This document shows, piece by piece, positions 1 to 49,714 of a DNA stretch of 64,000 bases. Below the pieces are notes generated by a model, which saw only the letters and a program-made list of their open reading frames with translations, was not told where the DNA came from and did no database searches. A program made the translations under genes and the position numbers. The stretch is from Halichondria panicea. Its lineage: Eukaryota; Porifera; Demospongiae; Suberitida; Halichondriidae. How positions within the stretch are numbered: the first letter of the stretch is position 1; every line of letters begins with the position of its first letter. The DNA lies in assembly GCF_963675165.1 (NCBI RefSeq), contig NC_087389.1:3134001-3198000 (forward strand). Reading direction: 5' to 3'.

Positions 1-887
1 TAGCAGGCGAACACGGCCGGAATAAAGGCCTCGTGTACACTGGGCAGCACCTTCGGATTTTTAACGCATTTCGGGAATTAAGAATTAACTCCTCACAGCA
101 CTAGATGACTTTATGATGTATCGGATTAGATGGGGATGATCTGGAAGGAGGCCTGGTAGTACTCTTGAGAGCTTTGGGGAGGATTTAGTATATCTTTTGG
201 TAACAATGGCAATAAGCATACAAATAAAAGGAACGTACTTTTCTTGCAAGGTAGCACCTGTTTTCAAGAAGAGACTTGGATAGGGTTTGGTCGATTTCCC
301 TAGCGATAACCTACATGTATGGTAGTGTTTGTATGGTAGTGTTTGCAATGAAATATTAAAAAAATGGGTGCTAACTTCAACGTATACACGTCTCGTAATT
401 GCCGGTGAAACCGCACTTCCTTGTTTGGAAGCGACTAAGTGCTTGCAAACCTGTATTGTGCATAACACGTGTAGGGATTCAACTACTTTTATATGGAAAT
501 GCCAAACGTGGTCAGCCGCTCCTTCTCTTATTTATGGGCTCCTGGTTTTATGCCATACTTTTAACCATGGTTACCTGTATTTCTGTGGTCTGTGGGAGGA
601 GTGGGAGGAGTGTCTCAGGAAACACTATTTGTATTTGAGCAGCATGTTCATGAACAGCTGGGTTTTGCGGCAACTACTATCACCAGGTTCTTTGGTTTGA
701 GGTTCTTTGGTGTTTGGAATCCTTTGGTGTTTGAGAAAGTGTGATATGGTGATATGGCTGCAACTGCTGCAACTGCTGCAACTGGTGAGTAGGGTTTAAA
801 ATTTCGTGCAATTTAATATTATTTTGTCTTCTTTGGAAAATTTCGCGGTATTAAATTTCGTGAAAGTGTGAAAGTTAAATTAAGAGG
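1..887. other. No gene recognised
   Basis: I see no coding motif or element end here. There is a perfect 14-bp tandem duplication at 317-344, a duplicated GGGAGGAGT tract near 598-616, and a CTGCAA-rich short repeat near 757-785. Short open frames on both strands show no recognisable motif. Confidence 0.5.
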
Positions 888-1268
888 GTGTGGCATTGGC
901 ATTTATCTCGCGTAGTTGAGTTCTATCATCATGGATACATTCTCCATAGCATCGATGAGGCTACCATGTCTATCAGGGTACATGGAACATGGAATGCATT
1001 AGTAGGGGAGTGCAAGAGCAGGAACTGCTGTTGTTGTAGGGCATGCTCTCTATTTCTAAGAAGAAGTGGCTCAACAATAACAGCAGAAGATATTCTACAG
1101 ATCTTCCCCAAGGGGGCCCGTGTATGCTCACTTTTTCTGGACAGCGTCAAAATATTAATAAGGTAAAAGCCCTCATTGCTGAGGTGGTACAGGTAGTAGT
1201 AAGAAGGATGCAACAGGTGATATTGATGTGGATATGCCTGCAAAACGGCCAGCCCTATGCAGTGATGT

Positions 1269-1801
1269 TTGGACAAACCTCGAAAATATTACTTTGTATA
1301 TGGAAGACAAACAGACAAACAGAAGATCCTTGGAAATGATCTATTAAATGACGATTATATCACAGCACAGAATTTGTTAAAGAGACAGTTCCCTTCACCA
1401 GTTGGACATACTGTGTACGATAATTGGGTATGCAACAATTTCTCCACTGCCGTGGTAATCACTGGATTACTGTCAGCACGTTAGGATGTGCTAAAGGTGA
1501 AATTAACATTTTTGATTCAATATTCTCTTCACTCGATAAAGATATTCTGAGCAACATTTTCAAAAACAATAGCCTTTGTTTCAAGAACGCTGATGTTCAC
1601 AAACAGAAAGGACTGTGGTCTTTTTGCCATAGCTTTTGCAACGCATCTTGCTATGCTAATGGTACTAGTCCCACCTGTGTTTCATTTGATCAAAGTTCAT
1701 TTGATCAAAGTAGTCATCTTGTATCATGCATTAGCCCATTAGCCTATCAATTTATTTCCTATGCTGTAAAATTGTTGATACCATTCCATCCCAGAACATG
1801 A
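1269..1801 (+). pseudogene. C48 (Ulp1/SENP-like) cysteine peptidase remnant
   Basis: The plus strand carries the landmarks of a Ulp1-type protease in order: an LLNDDYITAQNLLKRQFP segment, HCRGNHW with the catalytic His codon at 1460-1462, IFDSI with the catalytic Asp at 1514-1516, and DCGLFAIAFATHLA with the catalytic Cys at 1614-1616. The family cleaves SUMO-like isopeptide bonds. Many animal members belong to transposons or expanded gene families. The three parts lie in different frames. One break coincides with an 8-bp tandem duplication (ACAAACAG, 1307-1322). Another lies near 1425, and a third between the Asp and the Cys. A 15-bp duplication follows at about 1684-1713. The domain order makes the family call firm; whether it functions is doubtful. 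The 5' part of the gene upstream of about 1269 was not resolved. Confidence 0.72.
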
Positions 1802-1984
1802 TATAAACATAAAACTATTTTATTATTATAAGTCCAGAATTTCTAAATGCAATTGATGATGATTTCAGGATGAGATTCGAATCGATTGCCGTTCAATCAC
1901 ACTTAACCTTAAATCAACAGGTTCCTCGGTTCCACTCTCTAGTTGCTTGCAAACGATATCACCACACCACTCCTGAAATTTATA

Positions 1985-2535
1985 CAGAATAAATACATGT
2001 TTTTCTTTAAAAATCCATATCTTATGAACCATACATTGAAATCACTCGTAACTATTTCCTACAGGTAGCCCAGACCCCGGGGGTACCATGACATCATCAT
2101 CGTTACCTAGCAACTGACCACCCCCAACTAATTAGCGATTGTTTACAAACATTCACAATTATGTACAAAACAATATTATACGAAGTTGTACAAATGCTTA
2201 CCAGATCCAGAAACTTGGTCCAGCTCCTTCAGGCTCCTTATTTTAGCTTGAGGTAGCTTCCTACCTAGCTACGATCCCAGTCACTGTCCTCTCACTCTAC
2301 AAGGCCATAAGCATCGATATATTATCACTGTCTAGCAGCTCTAGAACCCCACTGAGGTTGTACTACGAAGATCTTGAAGTCATCATCAAACGGTCACTTT
2401 TCTTTCGACAGTACTGCACGAAGCGTACCTCGAAGCAAGATGTTGAAAATATCACGTGAAAGAGCAGCTCAATGCGCATGTGCTGGTACCTACAGCGTGC
2501 AAAACATATGTCGTCCAAAGCCGGGAAAGGGTTCA
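1985..2535 (-). repeat. TTAA-family repeat, copy A (5'-truncated, inverted)
   Basis: In reverse complement this matches the repeat at 27,278-28,073. It contains the same stretch around GACCGTTTGAT, the GTTGCTAGGTAACGATGATG stretch and the AGCCGGGAAAGGG end at about 2518-2531. The opposite terminal repeat is missing, so the copy is truncated. The end is followed by TTCA rather than TTAA. It has no intact coding capacity. Confidence 0.6.
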
Positions 2536-2639
2536 ATCAAGTGGTTGAAGCCTGTCAGTACAGTTAGCTGGAATGACCACATACAAAATACAATTTCAAT
2601 TTTCTTCTAACAATCTACTCTACGAACATTGTCAACCAA

Positions 2640-3170
2640 ATGCCCTTTGAATCGGATGATCAGACGCAAGGTTCAATTTAGAACGTGTTTCAGTCACATA
2701 AGGAACTATAATCTTTGTTATATAATCAATCAGGCTGTGCAAGTTATGTGCCAATTTTCAGGAAAATAAATCTTCGGAACCTTGGCTGTAGTGGTAGAAA
2801 CCTTCCAGATAAAGAGCATCCAAACACAGCGGTGATTTGCCTTTTATCACAATTTCGTTCCCAATTAATGCATCTGGGATGTCTTCCATTTTTACTACAC
2901 ACTTCACATCATTGCAAAAGTCGTACATGTACGTTGATATACATGTACGTTGATATCATTATTATTAGCTACTACTATAAAACTACTTGGTGAGCAGCTC
3001 TGTGTCTGTGTCGAGTGTATGGAGGGTCCATGTAATTTCCTTCTCCCCTGGACACCATCGACCCATCGACCGGAGAGTAGCATGAAGTCGTGAGTTTGAA
3101 GGACTATACTGAAGGACTATACTGCAAGCTTATCAAGCCATTCTATGTAGCACTTAGATACATAATAACC
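2640..3170. other. No gene recognised
   Basis: Nothing recognisable. There is a 16-bp tandem duplication (ACATGTACGTTGATAT) near 2924-2956 and a 13-bp one near 3101-3127. Confidence 0.4.
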
Positions 3171-3174
3171 AATG

Positions 3175-3865
3175 TACTTTGCTCCACAGCAGGGAAAGAG
3201 AAAAGTTAGCTTAACTCAATAAAAATTGGAAACAGAGTAAAGACAGAGCTTGTCACTCTCCCAGCTTCTGAGTGAGCTAGAAACAGACACAGAACGATCA
3301 ACCACAACGATAACCACCCACAACGATCAACCACGAAAATATATGAGAGCGCAAAATATAACGCTGACCTTTTACACAGGGGGGCCTGGTCGTTTCCAAT
3401 CCTTACAGACAACAGTAGGAGGGATTGGAAACAAAAATGTTTGCGTGAAACACTCAGCGTTATAGGGTGCTACAAAGGATTATTTTTATAGTCAGCAGGC
3501 TCATTACCTGCTCACTTTGATTTTTCTAAAAAGTAAAGAGAATCTAGCTTGACTAAGCCACTCAGCCACTAAACAAATAAATGCTATAAAAAAAAGAATA
3601 GCTCTTACTATGAACCGTGGTGTGTCTAAAAGTATACTGAAACAGGAGCAAACGTTTATGAACAGTATAGCTTATCCGTCGCCAAGTCAAGCAATGTACT
3701 TTGACATAGAGTAATTAACTCAAAAGATAACGCTAGAGTACCTCCCAGCTTTTGAGTGATCGCTAGTGGATAGGAGCAACCACAAAAATATTTGCGAGCG
3801 CGAAATATAATGCGGAGTGTTCCTTTAACACAGTGGGGCCTGGTCGTTTCAAATCCGGCTTGCTC
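3175..3865. repeat. Two diverged copies of one repeat, with a foldback
   Basis: The segment at about 3175-3400 (CTCCCAGCTTCTGAGTGA ... GGGGCCTGGTCGTTTC) recurs with divergence at about 3690-3862. In the first copy GTTTCCAATCC is followed within about 20 bases by its perfect complement GGATTGGAAAC. The inverted similarity extends outward to AACGCTGA/TCAGCGTT (about 3359-3461). This structure suggests a foldback-type non-autonomous element. No coding motif was seen. Confidence 0.5.
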
Positions 3866-4627
3866 GTGTCTTCATGATCAGGCTCGATCACTGCTCATCT
3901 TTGGTCACTGCTCATCTTTGGCTCCCTTTGTCAGTCCTGCTGACAACACGCCCAAAGAACTTATCGAGTGAGCTACTTCACGACATCATCCCTGTTTTTA
4001 TAGCACTAGTTCCTCAAGAACAAGCCAAGACCCTCTGGTTGAGTACCAAATTTACTTGGGTAATAAGACTTCCCTCCAAATTTACTTGGGTAGGTAACAT
4101 AGCATGATGAGTCACAATGTACCGTGAGCGGCGAGAGTAGAGTGAGGTGGGCCCTACGCAGTGGCAGTGATATGAGGTCTATGAGGTCTTTGAGTATTAA
4201 CTGTGTATAGGGCATACAATATGGCTGAGCACCTACCCCTCTGACTCGAGCGACCTGAACTAGACAGAGATTGACCCGTAGCCGTCTCTCCATTCGTCCC
4301 ATTTGTCCTCGGGGAAGCGTTGCCCGTGGTCCCGGTAAAAAGAATAATCAAGTCCTCAAAGATATCTCAGGAGGAGGAAAAAAGAGAGTGACGGGATCCC
4401 TGTACCGTACTGAGTTGGGTACAAGCATTTAGCCTTTATGCAGCGGTGGCTACTCGTGCTATAAAACGTGCTATAAAATTACGTATGGCTACTCGTTGAT
4501 AGCTATAAAACATCTTTAAGAGGGTGAGAGGAATTTCCCACCAAATTTGGTCTGTCTCCGCAGACACACCTATGAGTTGTGAAATGCGAAATGCAGGTTG
4601 GTGCGAAATGCAGGTTGGTGGTGTGAT

Positions 4628-5057
4628 CATATCAGGACATGGAGGACATTTTTGTCCCTGCAGGATTTATATTGAGAATGAATTAAAACATTGGAAATAC
4701 AGAACAATTGTAACCAACCATCTTATTCTGCATCTTGTTAGCTACGTGCTCATACAAAGTTTGTCTAACTGACATAAAAGCTGTCTCTGCCGTTTTGGAA
4801 ATAAGCATGGGTGATTTTTACTGTACTTTTACCATAGGCTACCACTTCCTAAAAATATTTCTCTAATTACAGGCATGAGGAAACATTTTGTAAGCCTGAA
4901 CATTTTGTAAGCCTGAGTAATATTGAACAGGATATGACCTAAGGGTACAGCAAATCTAGTTTAAGTTTTTGAAGCTGCGTTTACCTGCCGATTGATTTTT
5001 TCTGAGGGAACTAGTATCCAGTGAGCCAGCACGTTTACCTAAGGTGTGAACCAGCTA
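4628..5057. repeat. Dispersed repeat, copy 1 (pairs with 58,161-58,553)
   Basis: About 400 bases match 58,161-58,553 in the same orientation with few differences, from CATATCAGGACATGGAGGAC to GTGTGAACCAGCTAC. This copy has a perfect 17-bp tandem duplication at 4883-4916 where the other copy has one unit (58,418-58,434). I see no coding motif and no terminal inverted repeat. It may be a fragment of a longer transposon. Confidence 0.7.
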
Positions 5058-5274
5058 CCAAAGTGTCAACAATAGTACCATGGACCTATGGACCTCTTAT
5101 CAACAGTTCTATCTCTTTTCTCATCCTCTACCCCCAACCTACACTCATACCTCATCCCAAAGTAAGTAATGGTGTATAGCTAGCTATAATAGCACCATGC
5201 ATCTGATCTGAATCATGAGCTAGTTAAGCAGATGAGTTATTGCTTAAAATGCTCAACTCCTTTCATACAGCCAA

Positions 5275-5880
5275 ATTCTGTTTGACATCGCCAGTGAGTC
5301 CTCAACAAGTCTCAATGAAGGCACTGTTCGTGATTGGCTACTGCAATGTGGAATAACTTCAGACCGACTCGCTACTTTGTTAACCAATAGAGTTAACTAT
5401 GTAGCCCGAAACTCCACACTGCCTGTGGGAAAGAGGAAGCAAATGTGGGAAATGATAATCTTCGTACACCTCTAAGGGAGGTCCAAGCATCGAGTGATTT
5501 GTCTAGGAGGAAGAGGCGAACCGAGCAATATTCTAAGAGGCATGAACGGCGACTCAAGAAGCAGCGGAGTTCAAATGCTCTCACGTTTCTGGGTGATGAA
5601 GGTTTTGTGCCAGTAGGCGTCTCTGTTGTGAACAAAGAAGAACAAAGAAGACGGATCACTACTGAGTGAAGAATTTGTGGGAAAATCAGAAGAAGAACTG
5701 ATACATATGATGCTGTATGTACCACATATCTGGACAAGCATACCATGAGATGGCAGCAATATGTAAACAAAATAATGCCAAGGCACTATAGACTTAAAAA
5801 AATAATCAATGAATTGAACTCGTTGTGGAATCTTTCTCTAACGCCAGAGGGAACCTTTGAGGCCAAACATGCTTGGAAAT
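5275..5880 (+). pseudogene. Unassigned gene fragment with AYHEM and MPRHYRLKK motifs
   Basis: Exon-like plus-strand coding runs from about 5275 (NEGTVRDWLLQCGI, then NYVARNSTLPVGKRKQMWE). It continues one frame over from about 5445 as a very basic stretch (LSRRKRRTEQYSKRHERRLK) with FLGDEGFVPVGVSVVN, and ends near 5710-5880 with ISGQAYHEMAAICK, MPRHYRLKK and LTPEGTF. At least two frameshifts separate these parts. The AYHEM segment recalls the AYHEL segment of the gene at 8.9-11.6 kb, so the two may be distant relatives. I do not recognise a named family and assign no function. Confidence 0.5.
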
Positions 5881-6788
5881 AATGGCGAGAGTTGTAATTA
5901 CATGTCATACAGGTTACACATTTATGTCAATGCATAATTATTTAGATACATGTCATACACGTTACACATGTTTATTTATGTCAATGCAAATGCATAAGTT
6001 ATTTATTAGGAAGAGCCTTAGGAAGGGATTTTAAGTTGTCATAAGTCATATACACACGAGTGTTTTTAGTTATTCCTGATACGCTATCGTAGCGTAGTGG
6101 TTGGTAAATTCAGGAAGTGGTGGAGGTATTCTTAATTGAGTGTTGATTGACGTTCCTTGTTCTAGTTCTAGAATATCATCGCCTCCCTTTGTGTAATATT
6201 TTCAACGTAGGCATAGTTGTTGGAATACATGTCTCATGTCAAAGCCCTCCTCACTTCCTCACTTCGACAAATAAGGAGCGGATTTGTTGTCCCCGATTTT
6301 TACGTTCCGAGTTGAATACATATCTCTCCCAACCAAAGCCAAATGTTCTGTACTCTACGTAGTGTTGTTATTATTGCTTCTGGCAGAGTCAATTTGAAGG
6401 TTCTTTCTCATGGCCAGTAATGAACACACAGTTGCAGACATACCGAATTTACTCTAATATAACAGTTATAAATATATTCATAGTGTTACGTCATTCATTT
6501 CAGTGTCATATCCTGTTTCATGACACAACAGTCATCATAACTATAATTAATAAAGCATCATGTCAAAGAGAGAGAGACCCAGTCAAGGATTCTACACATT
6601 TCTCAACTCTCTTAGCTCTGTAGATACTTCAACTTAGCTTTAGCAGAGTCTCAGAACTACCTCCTGGGGTTTTCCAAGTAGAACATATCTTTCATCATAT
6701 AGAAAAGCCAAGGTATAGAAAAGCCAAGGTATAGTGCAGTCAGTTTGTACATAGATGTATCATGCATGGTTTGTATAAATGTTACAGG
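5881..6788. other. No gene recognised
   Basis: This stretch is AT-rich with no motif. A 16-17-bp tandem duplication (TAGAAAAGCCAAGGTA) lies near 6700-6735. Confidence 0.4.
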
Positions 6789-43552: not shown

Positions 43553-43561
43553 AGCAAAATT

Positions 43562-43706
43562 TAGCCTCCTTCGCAGCCTCTCCTTTTTCTGTTCTTTGTC
43601 ATAGTTCAATAAGATAAAATACGGGGCTAATTGGAGGAACAAAGAAAGAAAGAAGGAAGAGACTAAGAAAAAGGAGAGCCTGCCTTGCTAAGTCGCGTGA
43701 CGGTAG
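43562..43706 (+). repeat. Left terminal inverted repeat of the DUF6589-RecQ element
   Basis: Begins TAGCCTCCTTCGCAGCCTCT and ends GAGCCTGCCTTGCTAAG. Its reverse complement aligns along its length with 49,557-49,703. The block is itself partly self-complementary at its two edges. Confidence 0.7.
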
Positions 43707-44089
43707 ACGAGTGGTAGACGAGTGAAAATGAACGTGGGCAGTCAGACCAACAAGCCACAGCATGCCTACGCATTCCGCCTTTGCTTTAGCCAAAAAGTCT
43801 TGGAAACAATTTACTTTGGTCCTGTGTACCTACGTACGTGTAGCTAGCTAGCTCCAATTTTTTTATCCATGAAATACACTGTTATGATAATAATTTATTA
43901 TGCCTCAAGTTGTCTCAGCCTCTGGAAACTAACCATGCACTGCACTTTGGTCTCATCTATCTATGGTCTCATGCACATTAATTAATTCAGTACAACTTAG
44001 CACAAAACACGACGTACAGAACAACTGTTACTAGACTATATAAGTATAATAGTGACATTTAGCAATGACTATGCCATTATAGTCTAGAT

Positions 44090-46973
44090 ATGGGAAAAAA
44101 CATAAAACTGTACCAAAATAGTAACAATGATGTCAGTGACACAGCAAACCAATCACAGACAATAATGGAAAAAATTACACAAGAAGAGTGGCTCAAGGCA
44201 CACTACAACGAATCACCATCGGAAGGGCCCCCAGCGAAACGAGTGAAGTTTGAGGATGTGTACAATGATATCAGCTCAGCTTTTCCACGAACAAAATTTT
44301 AGCTTCCAAATGGTCTCAGATACTATCACGTCTGTTTTCCCTCAATCCTTTTCAAAACGTTTCGGAAAAAGCCGCAAGGCACACATAGCCGCAAGGCACA
44401 CATAGTTGGTATTGAGCCGAAAGACCAGACGACAATTCCGCAGAACAACTCAAGAGATCGATTGATACAAACAGCCAACTTAGGCAACAAGTGAAAGCGC
44501 TGGAAGATAGGGTTAGTGAACTAGAGCAAGCCAATCAAAGATCGCTAGTCAGGCAAATTAACACATTAACAACCTCCTCCCACTCTGCCTCTCATGGACC
44601 TGACAATTCGTCACTTCCAAGAGTTTACGATGGACCAACTTCTCAAGGAATTTGAACAGTATGCTCCAGATGTACTTCAACTTCTTAAGGCTCTTGGTGA
44701 TGTCCAGACGACTGGTGCCGATGAGGTGGCCCCTACACAAAACGGCAAGGTGGTGGTAGCTATGTGAACACTCATGAGAAGCAGGACAAGAAGGGTGCTC
44801 GGTCTCCAATTGCTGATTAGCTTCATGCTGGTGGCTAGGTCCACAAACTCCCAGGTACTGTAACGTGTGGGAAAACAATGTTAATTATACATGATGCATA
44901 TAATTATAAAAATTTAACAACACTATATAGGTTCTAAATTGCCTAAATCATGCCGGGATATGCGTGTCGTACCAAACCACCTGGAAATATCTTAAACAGC
45001 TCACTGTACAATCACGATACACTGAACTATTACGTGAAGGCCACTGGTTGTGGGTGTTCGACAACTTGAACATTCACCAAAAAGTTCGCCATGAACGTGA
45101 CGGTAATAGATTGTATGTACAGTATTATTGTTTTCAATGGAAACTTACCTTCTACAGAAACTTACCTTCTACAGATTATCACTCTAGCATGCTGAACATC
45201 ACATCACGCATAGCTGTGCGTATCAAAAATCTTCCAGATTGGCCATTTGAATGGAGTGATACTACACCACAACGCTCGATTGAATCACTCACACCGTCTG
45301 ATTTTCTACCGAGTGAAGATGACGCAAAGGAGTTGAAGACAAGAGCTGTCAGGTACATGGTGCGCTTCTTAGTGAAAGAGTTCAGCAGCCTTGCTGACCT
45401 ACGAGGTTTCATTCCAGAGGAGACACATCATCCAAAACATCCATCTGAAGTTGTACCTATGAAAGTTCTTTTCAAAGATGAGAAGTACACAGCGGAAACC
45501 ATCGACATCCTTGCTCAACTAGCAGTAGATGCAGACTTGACTGATGGCGCTCCTCAGGTTAGTGCACAAACCTATACGCAAACATGTGTACATGAATCGT
45601 AGGAGTATACTGAGTTGTATACTAATTAACTTTCGTCAATTTTATGATTACATGCAGGTAGTCGTAGGTGACCAAGCAACATGCAAGACAATTCGGGCAA
45701 GCAAACTGTGGCGTCAAACAGAGATAAGATCAAACAGAGATAAGATCGATCGACACGACACGCTGAAATGGGTCAATGAAACTCCTGGTAAATAGAAATA
45801 ACAAATGTGCCATACATATGCTGGCTGGCCCAAACGGTGTTCCTTATTTAGAATAGTGTTATACACAGCGGTGGTACAATTAACTATATCAATGACGAAT
45901 ATACCAATAATTATAAGCCATATAGCGATCATACACTGAATTTCATACACTGAATTAATTAACTTACCTTTTTAATTCATCAGGTGACTTCCTCCGTATT
46001 CTTATGACTAAGTTTTGGGGAACTCCTGCCCAGTCTGGATCGTTGTGTAATCTACGTGAGGTGATTCGACGAACTAGTGTCGATAAGGGTGTCAAAGTGT
46101 TTAATGTCGGTGATGAATTTCTTATGCACGCCTTTAAAGGTCATCTTATCTCCAGCATTATGACACACCTGAAAATCAAGTCCGTCGATGATAAGATTTC
46201 TCACTGTGTTACGTACGGCTGGTTGCAAGAAATGGCTGAGAAGTTAGTCACCAAAACACTGATGCCTATACAACATTCAACTGATCCTGTATTCAAGATG
46301 CATCGGTCGTGTCTTCACCACGCATTTCTCTACGTCGACCTTAGCGAAGCGATTCGGTGGGAAAACGGATCACAAGTTGTCAGGCATTGGAAATACTGGT
46401 TACCACATTTTCTTGCCGAGGGGTGTACAAATTATTCTACAGAGGCAGTTCATCTCATCTCTAATCTGACAGCCGTGTTCCCAAAGCACATAGCGTACAT
46501 CACAACTCACAACCGAACTGTGAACATGAGTGGGAGGTTAGGACATGCAAAGCCAGTTGATCAGCTTATAGAGCATTACAATCTGTAAGTGTATAAGACG
46601 CAATAATAAATGTATTACCATCATTATAATCACACGCATATATACAGGATATTTAAGCAGACAATCAGGACATCTCAACATACTGAGGATGTGTCTTTGG
46701 CTGTTCTATTCCTAATGGAAGCAGCCAAACGGGCAGATTCCATGCTTGGAGCGAGCGGCAAGACAGACCACAGCACACACCGTACGAGATGCCAGCACAG
46801 ATGTCTTGAAAATGGCCAGAGACCTAATGGAGAAACAAACAACACAAGAAATATCAGTCCGCACTGCTCCAACATTCATCGACAACAGTGATGTGGGTTG
46901 GAAGAAACTGACAACGACGACTTGGCTGAAAGACGTTTTATCTAAAAAATTGGAACAAGAAGAAAGCATATAA
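44090..46973 (+). pseudogene. DUF6589-like gene (putative RNase H-fold transposase)
   Basis: Exon-by-exon: a charged start (from 44,090, KRVKFEDVYNDISSAFP); a coiled coil (LRQQVKALEDRVSELEQANQ, about 44,467-44,526); one frame over, LLKEFEQYAPDVLQLLKALG (about 44,639-44,698); VLGLQLLISFMLVARSTN up to the donor near 44,853; then from about 44,936 LKQLTVQSRYTELL and WLWVFDNLNIHQKVRHERD (donor about 45,103); YHSSMLNITSR through FKDEKYTAETIDILAQLA (45,176-45,557); VVVGDQATCKTIRAS (45,657-45,788); GDFLRILMTKFWGTP through VNMSGRLGHAKP (45,985-46,585); and a tail to 46,973. Candidate catalytic acids are in VFDNLN and VVGDQ. One in-frame stop (about 44,764) and a frame change after the coiled coil remain. 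I know the family as transposon-associated in fungi and animals; its chemistry is inferred. Confidence 0.7.
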
Positions 46974-47195
46974 TTATACATACATGAACAGTGATAGAGA
47001 ATTAGATATAGATTACGAAATTTCTTATGTTCTTTAAATGTGTACATAAAATTTTCAGTACTTGTTTCCCCGGAAGGCATTGCATGATCATAGTTTTGCG
47101 CGAACGCGTGATGTTTGCACAATACTTTTAAATATTTAAATAATGTATAACATAATAATATAACAAGAGAGTGATTATTATGGGATAAAAATCAA

Positions 47196-49015
47196 TTACA
47201 CACGTTGCCTCTTCTTGGCAGGCACTACACTGTCTATTACAGCAAAAAGCTTGTCACACAACTCAGGTCTTAAACTGTAATGTTCTTTAATGTACTCTAC
47301 TGAAGTTATAAATGACACATCTTGACATATTGCACGAATTAAAGCTGATGGGAGAACAAAATCAACACCTATCATTAAAAAAGAGGGGTGACTTGATAAA
47401 AAATTGTCCCGCTCTTCTGTCAATAATTCAACCAATTTTTTCTCTTGCTCACAAGATGCCACTCTAACACGCTTGCGTCTTGTTCTTGTAGGTGGTGGTA
47501 GAAGGGGTTCTAAGCACGCTATGTGATCTGGCAATCCTGGATTACATACATCACAACAGGGGCTATCAGCTGAGGCTATGGTGCTCTCGAGCTCTCTGCT
47601 ACCTAAGATCCTTAACAATCTCCTCCTCCTACAGTTCTCGGTGTCTGTGCAAAAATCTTTCACAAAAGAGTTGATTTTCTTCTGCTTAGGACTGTAGAAG
47701 ACATGGGCACGGGCAGGAGATCTGTCACGTCCAGCACGCCCACACAGCTACGTAAGAAAAACTAATATGAACTTGAAGACGTTATGGGTAATTATTACCT
47801 GATGTAATTCATTAACTCCACCTGGGGCACCATAAACTATAACCAGCCTGATATCCCCAATGTCCATCCCCTATATAGACATGCATACATGCATACAGTG
47901 TTATACAGTGACAAAATGCATACAGTGACAAACTAAAATGAGTGCTATATATACCTACCATTCCAAACGCAACAGTTGCAACAAGGCAACGAAGCTTTGT
48001 ATTGCCCTGAAAATCAGCTCTGATCCTCTCCTTCGTGAAGTGTGTCAGCGATGCGTGATACATCCCAACATAACTATTGCTGAAAGCAGCTGAGATAAGA
48101 CACCCATACACCTTGCACGCCATGTTCTTAGTTTGAACAAACAGAAGTATCTTGGGTATGTCACTTGGACTTGTGCGCTGTAGCATTTTGGCCACTCCAG
48201 CCATGTCTTTCTGTATAATTATGCTTTTGAGAGTTATATCATAATTAATAATTCTTACGGTCAAGGCCTTTATTGGTCCGACAGACATGTAGATATTTGG
48301 CCGGTCAAGAGATTGTGCGACTACTACTGGATTCACTAAATGGAGGGACTTTACAATAACGTCCTGTGTCTCAGCTGAAGCAGTCGCAGTTAAAGCCATA
48401 AAAGGTACATTGGTCAGAGCCCTCAACCCACCAAGCTTCTCAAAGGCAGGCCTGAACGATTCACCCCTATTAAGAACAAATATACTTACAGCCATTAGGA
48501 AGAATTAACCAACCAGTCAGTGATACAGTGAGCCTCATCAACTGCTAACAGGACCAGATGCTTCTTGGCAAATGGTGTTGAAAAAAATCCCCTCCAAGGT
48601 GTTTGTACAGCTATCTCAAGGCACATAAACACTGAAGTGGATTGTTTATTTTAGTACTATGTACAACTCACCAAATCGGTACGTTCCTTGAACAGCAGTG
48701 CCATAATTGCTCTTGGTGGCTATAGTTGCACTGACCCCTATACTATTCAATTGACTGACCTAACATGAATAGCTGTAATTATAAAATATTTGTAACTGTA
48801 CGTCCGGCAACCTACTTGTTGTTCCAGCCATTTAAAGGACTGACAACTACTGCTGCTGCCTCTAAGCTCACGATAAGTGGAGGAAGGAACATACACAATG
48901 ATTTCCCGAGCCTGTTGCCATTCTTACAAACACGTCCTTCCCTTGTAGAATAGGCTCAACTGCTTCAAACTGTCCTGGTCGCAATGTGGAAAAGTGGAAG
49001 TACTTGTACTCTTGA
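47196..49015 (-). pseudogene. RecQ-type DNA helicase
   Basis: Seven exons with GT-AG boundaries. e1 (49,015-48,815): Q-motif-like FHFSTLRPGQFEAV, then Walker A MATGSG. e2 (48,758-48,672). e3 (to 48,527): LLAVDEAHCITDW, the DEAH box. e4 (48,459-48,261): GESFRPAFEKLGGLRAL and LTATAS. e5 (48,212-47,961): GMYHASLTHFTKERI, ending VATVAFGM. e6 (47,875-47,804): GMDIGDIRLVIVYGAPGGV. e7 (47,749-47,196): LCGRAGRDRSPARAHVFYS, then a CCDVC zinc-like site and a basic C terminus. These are RecQ motifs I-VI; no HRDC domain is seen. In e1 the Walker A Lys codon lacks one base (near 48,903), and motif Ia is also shifted (near 48,825). RecQ enzymes unwind DNA 3' to 5'; here a role in transposition is inferred. 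Confidence 0.82.
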
Positions 49016-49556
49016 CCTCAGACTACAGCTGGATCTATCTATAGCTAAATCACTGGACATGCTAGCCTAGGTAGAACAAGTTAAGCTGTACTTTGATTTG
49101 CTGCAGTTGCACTCAGTTGCACTCTTTGAATTTGTACTATATATAGAATTTGGTGCTATAATTATTAATTATCATCTATATGTGAGGCGCACCGATTGTA
49201 AGGCCATATCCAGGGAAACAATACACACTTTAGCTATACACTATGTTTATTATATAAAAACCAACTCACTTTTTTGTGGCTTTCTCATCTTTTTTTCATC
49301 AGCTACACCACTTTTTCCAACTAGATCTACTCTAAGTTATTAGCTAGCTTAGTAGGTATATTAAAGCATACCATTGTGAGACTCTATCTGCTGAGATGTC
49401 TAAGAAGTCTTTCAGAAGAAAACATCACAACAACGTGTGCAGTTCCTGGTAAAGGCGCTCCAGTGCTGTGTGGGAGGACAGCTACTGCGGTCATGCTGAG
49501 GTTTTCTTGCACCCACGCTCATTAAAATGTGTATACGTCAGTAGGGGATCACAAGA

Positions 49557-49703
49557 CTTAGCGAGGCAGGCCTTCCTTTTTCTTATAGTGGCTTCCTTTT
49601 TTCTTTCTTTGCTCCCTCCAATTATTCCCGTATGGTGTTAACATTGTGACAAACAACAGAAACAAAATTATAACTGAAAAAGGAAGGCCTGCGAAGGAGG
49701 CTA
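49557..49703 (-). repeat. Right terminal inverted repeat of the DUF6589-RecQ element
   Basis: From CTTAGCGAGGCAGGCCTTCC to GCGAAGGAGGCTA. The last bases before the 9-bp direct repeat are the complement of the first bases of the left block. Confidence 0.7.
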
Positions 49704-49714
49704 AGCAAAATTAG

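Follow-up and report, generated by a model that had tools for sequence, protein, structure and literature searches.

AcademH, a group within the Academ superfamily of DNA transposons, is reportedly the subject of Kojima 2020 (Mob DNA 11:15). In the published descriptions, AcademH elements combine target duplications of 9 or 10 bp with a helicase, and AcademX elements combine duplications of 3 or 4 bp with a nuclease (PMC10045372); AcademH is covered also by PMC10799480. Academ is counted among the superfamilies with a DDD/E transposase (PMC9587614), and bivalve Academ elements have a mean length of 5,565 bp (PMC10294476). Fungal Academ elements contain DEAD-helicase and recQ_fam domains, and in fungi the annotation of Academ genes as host genes is a known nuisance (PMC6416283). 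Here we describe a locus in a 64,000-nucleotide stretch of the sponge Halichondria panicea (the window; C13:3134001-3198000 of the 131 Mb genome searched), where positions 43562-49703 very probably hold a decayed AcademH-type cut-and-paste DNA transposon that encodes a helicase, with the DUF6589 protein as its DDE transposase. DUF6589, a Pfam family of unknown function (PF20231), would thus receive a specific interpretation, as a Hermes/P/RAG1-type DDE transposase, and be tied to a helicase-bearing kind of transposon.

Structure of the element and its closest relatives

The element spans 6,142 bp, with termini TAGCC...GGCTA, between two perfect copies of the 9-bp target duplication AGCAAAATT (43553-43561 and 49704-49712). 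Directly inside these lie terminal inverted repeats of about 145 bp on the left (43562-43706, + strand) and about 148 bp on the right (49556-49703, - strand). Their end-to-end alignment, 164 columns in total, contained 115 identical columns among the 129 without gaps and scored 73.5; the highest score among 200 shuffles was 12.5. A DUF6589 gene (+) and a RecQ-type helicase gene (-) converge between the repeats. The direct repeats, the inverted end blocks and the facing genes had all been proposed in a first-pass annotation of the sequence, and were confirmed here, the genes by Pfam matches on the two strands.

The DUF6589 gene remnant (44931-46973, +) consists of the open pieces 44931-45602, 45541-45795, 45959-46588 and 46716-46973. 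Pfam matched DUF6589 in 45959-46588 (E 7e-30, above the Pfam cut-off) and in 44931-45602 (E 2e-4, below it), and piece 46716-46973 gave no DUF6589 match of its own. On the opposite strand, the helicase retains a C-terminal motor piece (47812-48504; Helicase_C, E 2e-4, below cut-off), with 67-78% identity to pieces of both sibling copies described below, and a RecQ zinc-binding region (47196-47747; RecQ_Zn_bind, E 2e-4, below cut-off). Motifs recognised by eye delimit an N-terminal helicase remnant with approximate borders (48525-48933, -), including a DEAH-box piece (48525-48545) and a Walker A region (48878-48933). Judged by its reading frames, the window copy is decayed, because this Walker A region is split over two frames and the DUF6589 match contains three internal stops, some of which may be intronic.

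When used as queries, the interior DUF6589 and RecQ stretches each matched the same two places in the genome, C6 and C1 (72% and 68% identity), with one additional match of only 59 bases for RecQ. The C1 sibling shares this layout, retains both TAGCC...GGCTA ends and is flanked by a perfect 9-bp duplication of its own, ACATCTTGC; it is 65-81% identical to the window element across matching pieces. The C6 copy, in which the left part is missing, shows 96.6% identity to the C1 sibling. Because the C1 sibling combines an identical layout with a different perfect duplication, the arrangement in the window is beyond chance, and further copies with the same ends and other 9-bp flanks, which the first-pass annotation proposed to look for, do exist.

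The end blocks are commoner than the interior (at least 40 places as against 3, self included), which favours the idea that they are independent miniature inverted-repeat transposable elements (MITEs) flanking unrelated genes by chance, or a two-MITE composite around host genes. All 40 places scored for the left block showed at least 96% identity (40 of 756 candidates scored, so that the count is a lower bound), and the right block, for which 40 of 129 candidates were scored, gave at least 44 matches with an identity of 73% or higher (likewise a lower bound), in both cases including self. However, neither block of the window element has a duplication of its own, and 10 of the 14 non-self copies examined were elements of 727-1418 bp with two blocks and a perfect outer 9-bp duplication; the remaining four (L005, L010, L013 and L014) had no exact duplication within the flanking DNA examined. 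None of the 14 was shown to be solo, contrary to the possibility, raised in the first-pass annotation, of mainly solitary 150-bp elements, and a solo-MITE origin was rejected. Considering also the C1 sibling, with the same ends and genes, and the repetition of the layout in families of unlike sequence, MITEs around unrelated genes are an exceedingly improbable explanation.

The short copies are instead non-autonomous derivatives of the window lineage, with two blocks and an outer 9-bp duplication in those 10. Two copies of about 0.73 kb (L002 and L008) match that end at 98-99% over 183 bp (43562-43744), and this identity suggests that they moved recently. The source of transposase for this burst is not evident, with the genes in the window broken and just two diverged relatives of the interior found.

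Recurrence of the gene pair and mobility of sister families

We searched the genome for DUF6589 and obtained at least 92 matches, merged to 63 loci (102 of 106 candidates scored). With the RecQ exon of the window as query, 28 matches merged to 26 loci, and 22 of these lay within 1.4 kb of a DUF6589 locus, all 22 in convergent orientation, although only 0.5% of the genome is within 5 kb of such a locus. The general recQ_fam model, run as a control, yielded at least 37 matches, merged to 27 loci (28 of 512 candidates scored, a lower bound; the list omits the helicases of the window, of both siblings and of families H3 and H4, below). Sixteen of the 27 were within 700 bp of DUF6589 and convergent with it and 11 were not; all four above the curated cut-off were away from DUF6589 and resemble host RecQ genes. 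Both RecQ lists combined comprise at least 36 loci, 25 of them near DUF6589.

The pair recurs within shared ends in several families, answering a question left by the first-pass annotation. Family H2 (L056 and L057) comprises two copies of 5,349 bp, 99.94% identical, with perfect 69-bp ends, 9-bp duplications ATATCATAG and TCCACAAAC and an open helicase exon; equal DUF6589 scores occur at six places in the genome. Family H3 (L059; 5,417 bp) has the 9-bp duplication GGCTATACC, and its second copy, L058, is 99.2% identical and has no matching duplication. The two H4 copies (L060 and L061; 5.6 kb) are 99.6% identical and flanked by CACTGAACA and GTTCGAAGG. All these elements start with TAG and finish with CTA, and their terminal inverted repeats measure 67-79 bp, as compared with about 145 bp in the window element. 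A 9-bp duplication was present at seven of the eight copies with both ends located; for L062, L063 and L064 the complete ends could not be found. Separately, a non-autonomous element of 1,083 bp lies on the reverse strand of L062 (5392-6474), close to a DUF6589/RecQ locus; its 85-bp inverted ends are perfect (TAGCCTCGATCCCAGG), and it is flanked by the 9-bp duplication TGCCCAACC.

There is almost no DNA similarity between H2 and H3 or H4, and H3 and H4 are 63-73% identical; despite this divergence, gene order, the 9-bp duplication and open exons are maintained. The H2 helicase piece matched recQ_fam (E 3e-61; 207.6 bits, below the NCBI family cut-off of 219.8); PDB chains of WRN, BLM and RecQ matched it at E 1e-36 to 1e-34, and a motif resembling Walker A lies upstream of it. 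Between the H3 and H4 helicases, the nonsynonymous and synonymous divergences were dN 0.31 and dS 2.8 over 275 codons, values that show purifying selection; for the last DUF6589 exon, dN was 0.33 and dS was saturated.

RecQ genes occur in hosts, and nearby RecQ matches were found for 26 of the 63 DUF6589 loci, therefore leaving 37 without one; both facts suit a captured host helicase, carried as a passenger with no role in transposition. Against this stand the convergent pairing in diverged families (H2 shares 39-41% identity with H3 or H4 in the helicase and 31-39% in the transposase, over matching exons) and the purifying selection on the helicase, and we consider a passenger quite unlikely. 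The near-identical H2 copies, with their open helicase exon, make the role of RecQ in a DDE transposon testable.

To look for empty sites, the joined flanks of seven insertions were compared with the genome, and 40 of the 101 candidates were scored. Paralogous empty sites matching across the junction turned up for four of the seven (the C1 sibling, H2a, H4a and H4b), with 100% identity for H2a and just 84-88% for H4a; among the candidates scored, the window copy, H2b and H3 retrieved their own flanks only. In the one empty site read for each of the four insertions, left and right flanks overlapped by exactly 9 bp and the target was present in a single copy; therefore, the 9-bp duplication was made on insertion. 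These results demonstrate a unit structure with 9-bp duplications, empty sites and a recurrent gene pairing, as well as recent mobility of the sister families, and bear out the proposal of the first-pass annotation that both genes belong to one mobile unit.

DUF6589 as a probable transposase and the palindromes within the ends

Two structure models of DUF6589 proteins had their best matches in hAT (Hermes), P element and RAG1/Transib, with an RNase H-like core and a helical insertion, at 7-12% sequence identity in aligned rows; plain Foldseek gave no match at E <= 0.001 for either model. The suggestion in the first-pass annotation of an RNase H-type nuclease is thus supported by comparison of structure models. 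An alignment of DUF6589 proteins showed conserved D, D and E-like motifs, and together with the models this makes DUF6589 a likely DDD/E transposase. Candidate catalytic residues in the window are the Asp of DNLN (45060-45071, +; matched by eye to DNxD in the alignment), the second Asp in GDQAT (45667-45681, +), where A replaces the L of a GDQLT motif present in 18 of 18 aligned proteins, and a Glu in the region DQLIEHYN (46559-46582, +; matched by eye to DxxxE).

DUF6589 is not named in the literature searched, and its modelled structural link to Hermes, P and RAG1 may be new. Searches of phages, viral contigs and bacterial genomes found no relatives of DUF6589. In a homology search 7991 candidates were scored, and a further one, with a protein and an alignment as queries, contributed six more proteins and brought up no partner domain.

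L069 (C9:1648000-1655000) contains, at 443-6093, an open frame of 1,732 aa whose central part is a DUF6589 domain (E 1e-13). It lies between inverted repeats of 24 bp, with no RecQ match and no target duplication found; loci with similar scores and long frames are on C14 and C3. The C-terminal EESDTR and SPDTDV stretches of L069 are reminiscent of the AcademX nuclease, a likeness for which Pfam, NCBIfam and the PDB gave no support. Four places (C8:5816898, C15:1673207, C9:3268510 and C1:14551816) gave near-equal matches to the N-terminal third of DUF6589 only (profile 9-152), in frames of 181-188 aa.

Each end block of the window element contains an inverted repeat, a feature absent from the first-pass annotation. 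Its arms are at 43573-43590 (outer) and 43666-43683 (inner) in the left end (+), and at 49676-49692 (outer) and 49566-49582 (inner) in the right end (-), and none of 300 shuffles was as good in either case. An inverted repeat beginning at nucleotide 10-14 was found in 10 of 10 ends from four lineages (five ends belong to the window lineage and one to a non-autonomous element). In eight of them, at most 3 of 300 shuffles were as good, and for the two nearly identical H3 ends the numbers were 13 and 6 of 300. Folding gave z -1.63 for the left window end (11 of 200 shuffles as good), -3.76 for the right window end, -4.9 for H4 and -2.4 for H2. By eye, the palindrome is perfect in three ends of the window lineage (right window end, C1 left and C1 right), which differ from one another at four positions, each change being mirrored in the opposite arm; the left-type end has one mismatch common to its copies, several of which show one-sided changes. 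Such covariation might stem from a structure, from a pair of binding sites or from conversion of one arm by the other.

We know of no report of a palindrome within each AcademH end, and the hairpin-like repeat may be new; nothing on Academ ends was found in PMC9587614. In a tentative and rather doubtful extension, the palindrome, 10-14 nt from the cut, would be maintained as a foldable structure and not as a sequence, and the RecQ helicase would act on the resulting hairpin or cruciform. If true, DDE transposition would here have end folding and helicase unwinding built in, and DUF6589 would constitute a further branch of hAT/P/RAG-like transposases.

We propose that the DUF6589 transposase, with its RNase H-like core and all-helical insertion, would recognise and cut the TAGCC ends and join them to the target at points 9 bp apart, generating the 9-bp duplication. 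The RecQ-type helicase, encoded convergently in the same element, would help by opening the DNA duplex at the ends or, alternatively, at a strand-transfer or donor-repair intermediate. Cut-and-paste is the presumed chemistry, over copy-out, and a helicase step, put forward for excision or repair in the first-pass annotation, a putative part of transposition.

Comparison with known transposons

The first-pass annotation saw in the pairing a possible new superfamily, but AcademH (PMC10045372) and RecQ-family domains in fungal Academ (PMC6416283) are already in print. That the element belongs to a superfamily distinct from Academ, with DUF6589 and RecQ paired by coincidence, is favoured by the silence of the literature searched on DUF6589 and by an Academ likeness drawn from published descriptions. 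However, the helicase, the 9-bp duplication and the RecQ family all fit Academ and AcademH, as does the 5.3-6.1 kb size of the sponge elements, set against the bivalve mean (PMC10294476), and a separate superfamily is therefore improbable.

Other groups were considered and rejected. The hAT (Hermes), P element and RAG1/Transib proteins share the RNase H-like core and helical insertion of the DUF6589 models, but differ in sequence, in having no helicase and in the length of their duplications, which is 8 bp for hAT and P element and 5 bp for RAG1/Transib; hAT is ruled out by the 9-bp duplication and by the Pfam matches of the pieces scanned, which include DUF6589 and lack any hAT family. KolobokH has a Kolobok transposase and TTAA duplications and is ruled out by 9-bp duplications of varied sequence. 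Helitrons have a HUH nuclease and neither inverted repeats nor target duplications; they are ruled out by the inverted ends and the 9-bp duplications, and no HUH family was among the Pfam matches of the pieces scanned. The nuclease of AcademX is of the XPG type. Pfam found no XPG near the window element, and the nearest of nine XPG_I matches in the genome is 572 kb from any DUF6589 locus, which rejects an XPG partner for DUF6589 and, with the 9-bp duplication, rules out AcademX. Six XPG_I matches (frames of 588-601 aa) cluster within 114 kb at C13:3752339-3866203, distant from DUF6589.

Within Academ, AcademX shares the superfamily and differs from the window element in the length of the duplication (PMC10045372), and fungal Academ shares a RecQ-family helicase and differs in its host (PMC6416283). 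In all the features compared with published descriptions, the element agrees with AcademH: a helicase gene, a 9-bp duplication within the 9-10 bp range of AcademH, an animal host and terminal inverted repeats. A DDD/E-type transposase is likely by model, and DUF6589 is the candidate counterpart of the Academ transposase.
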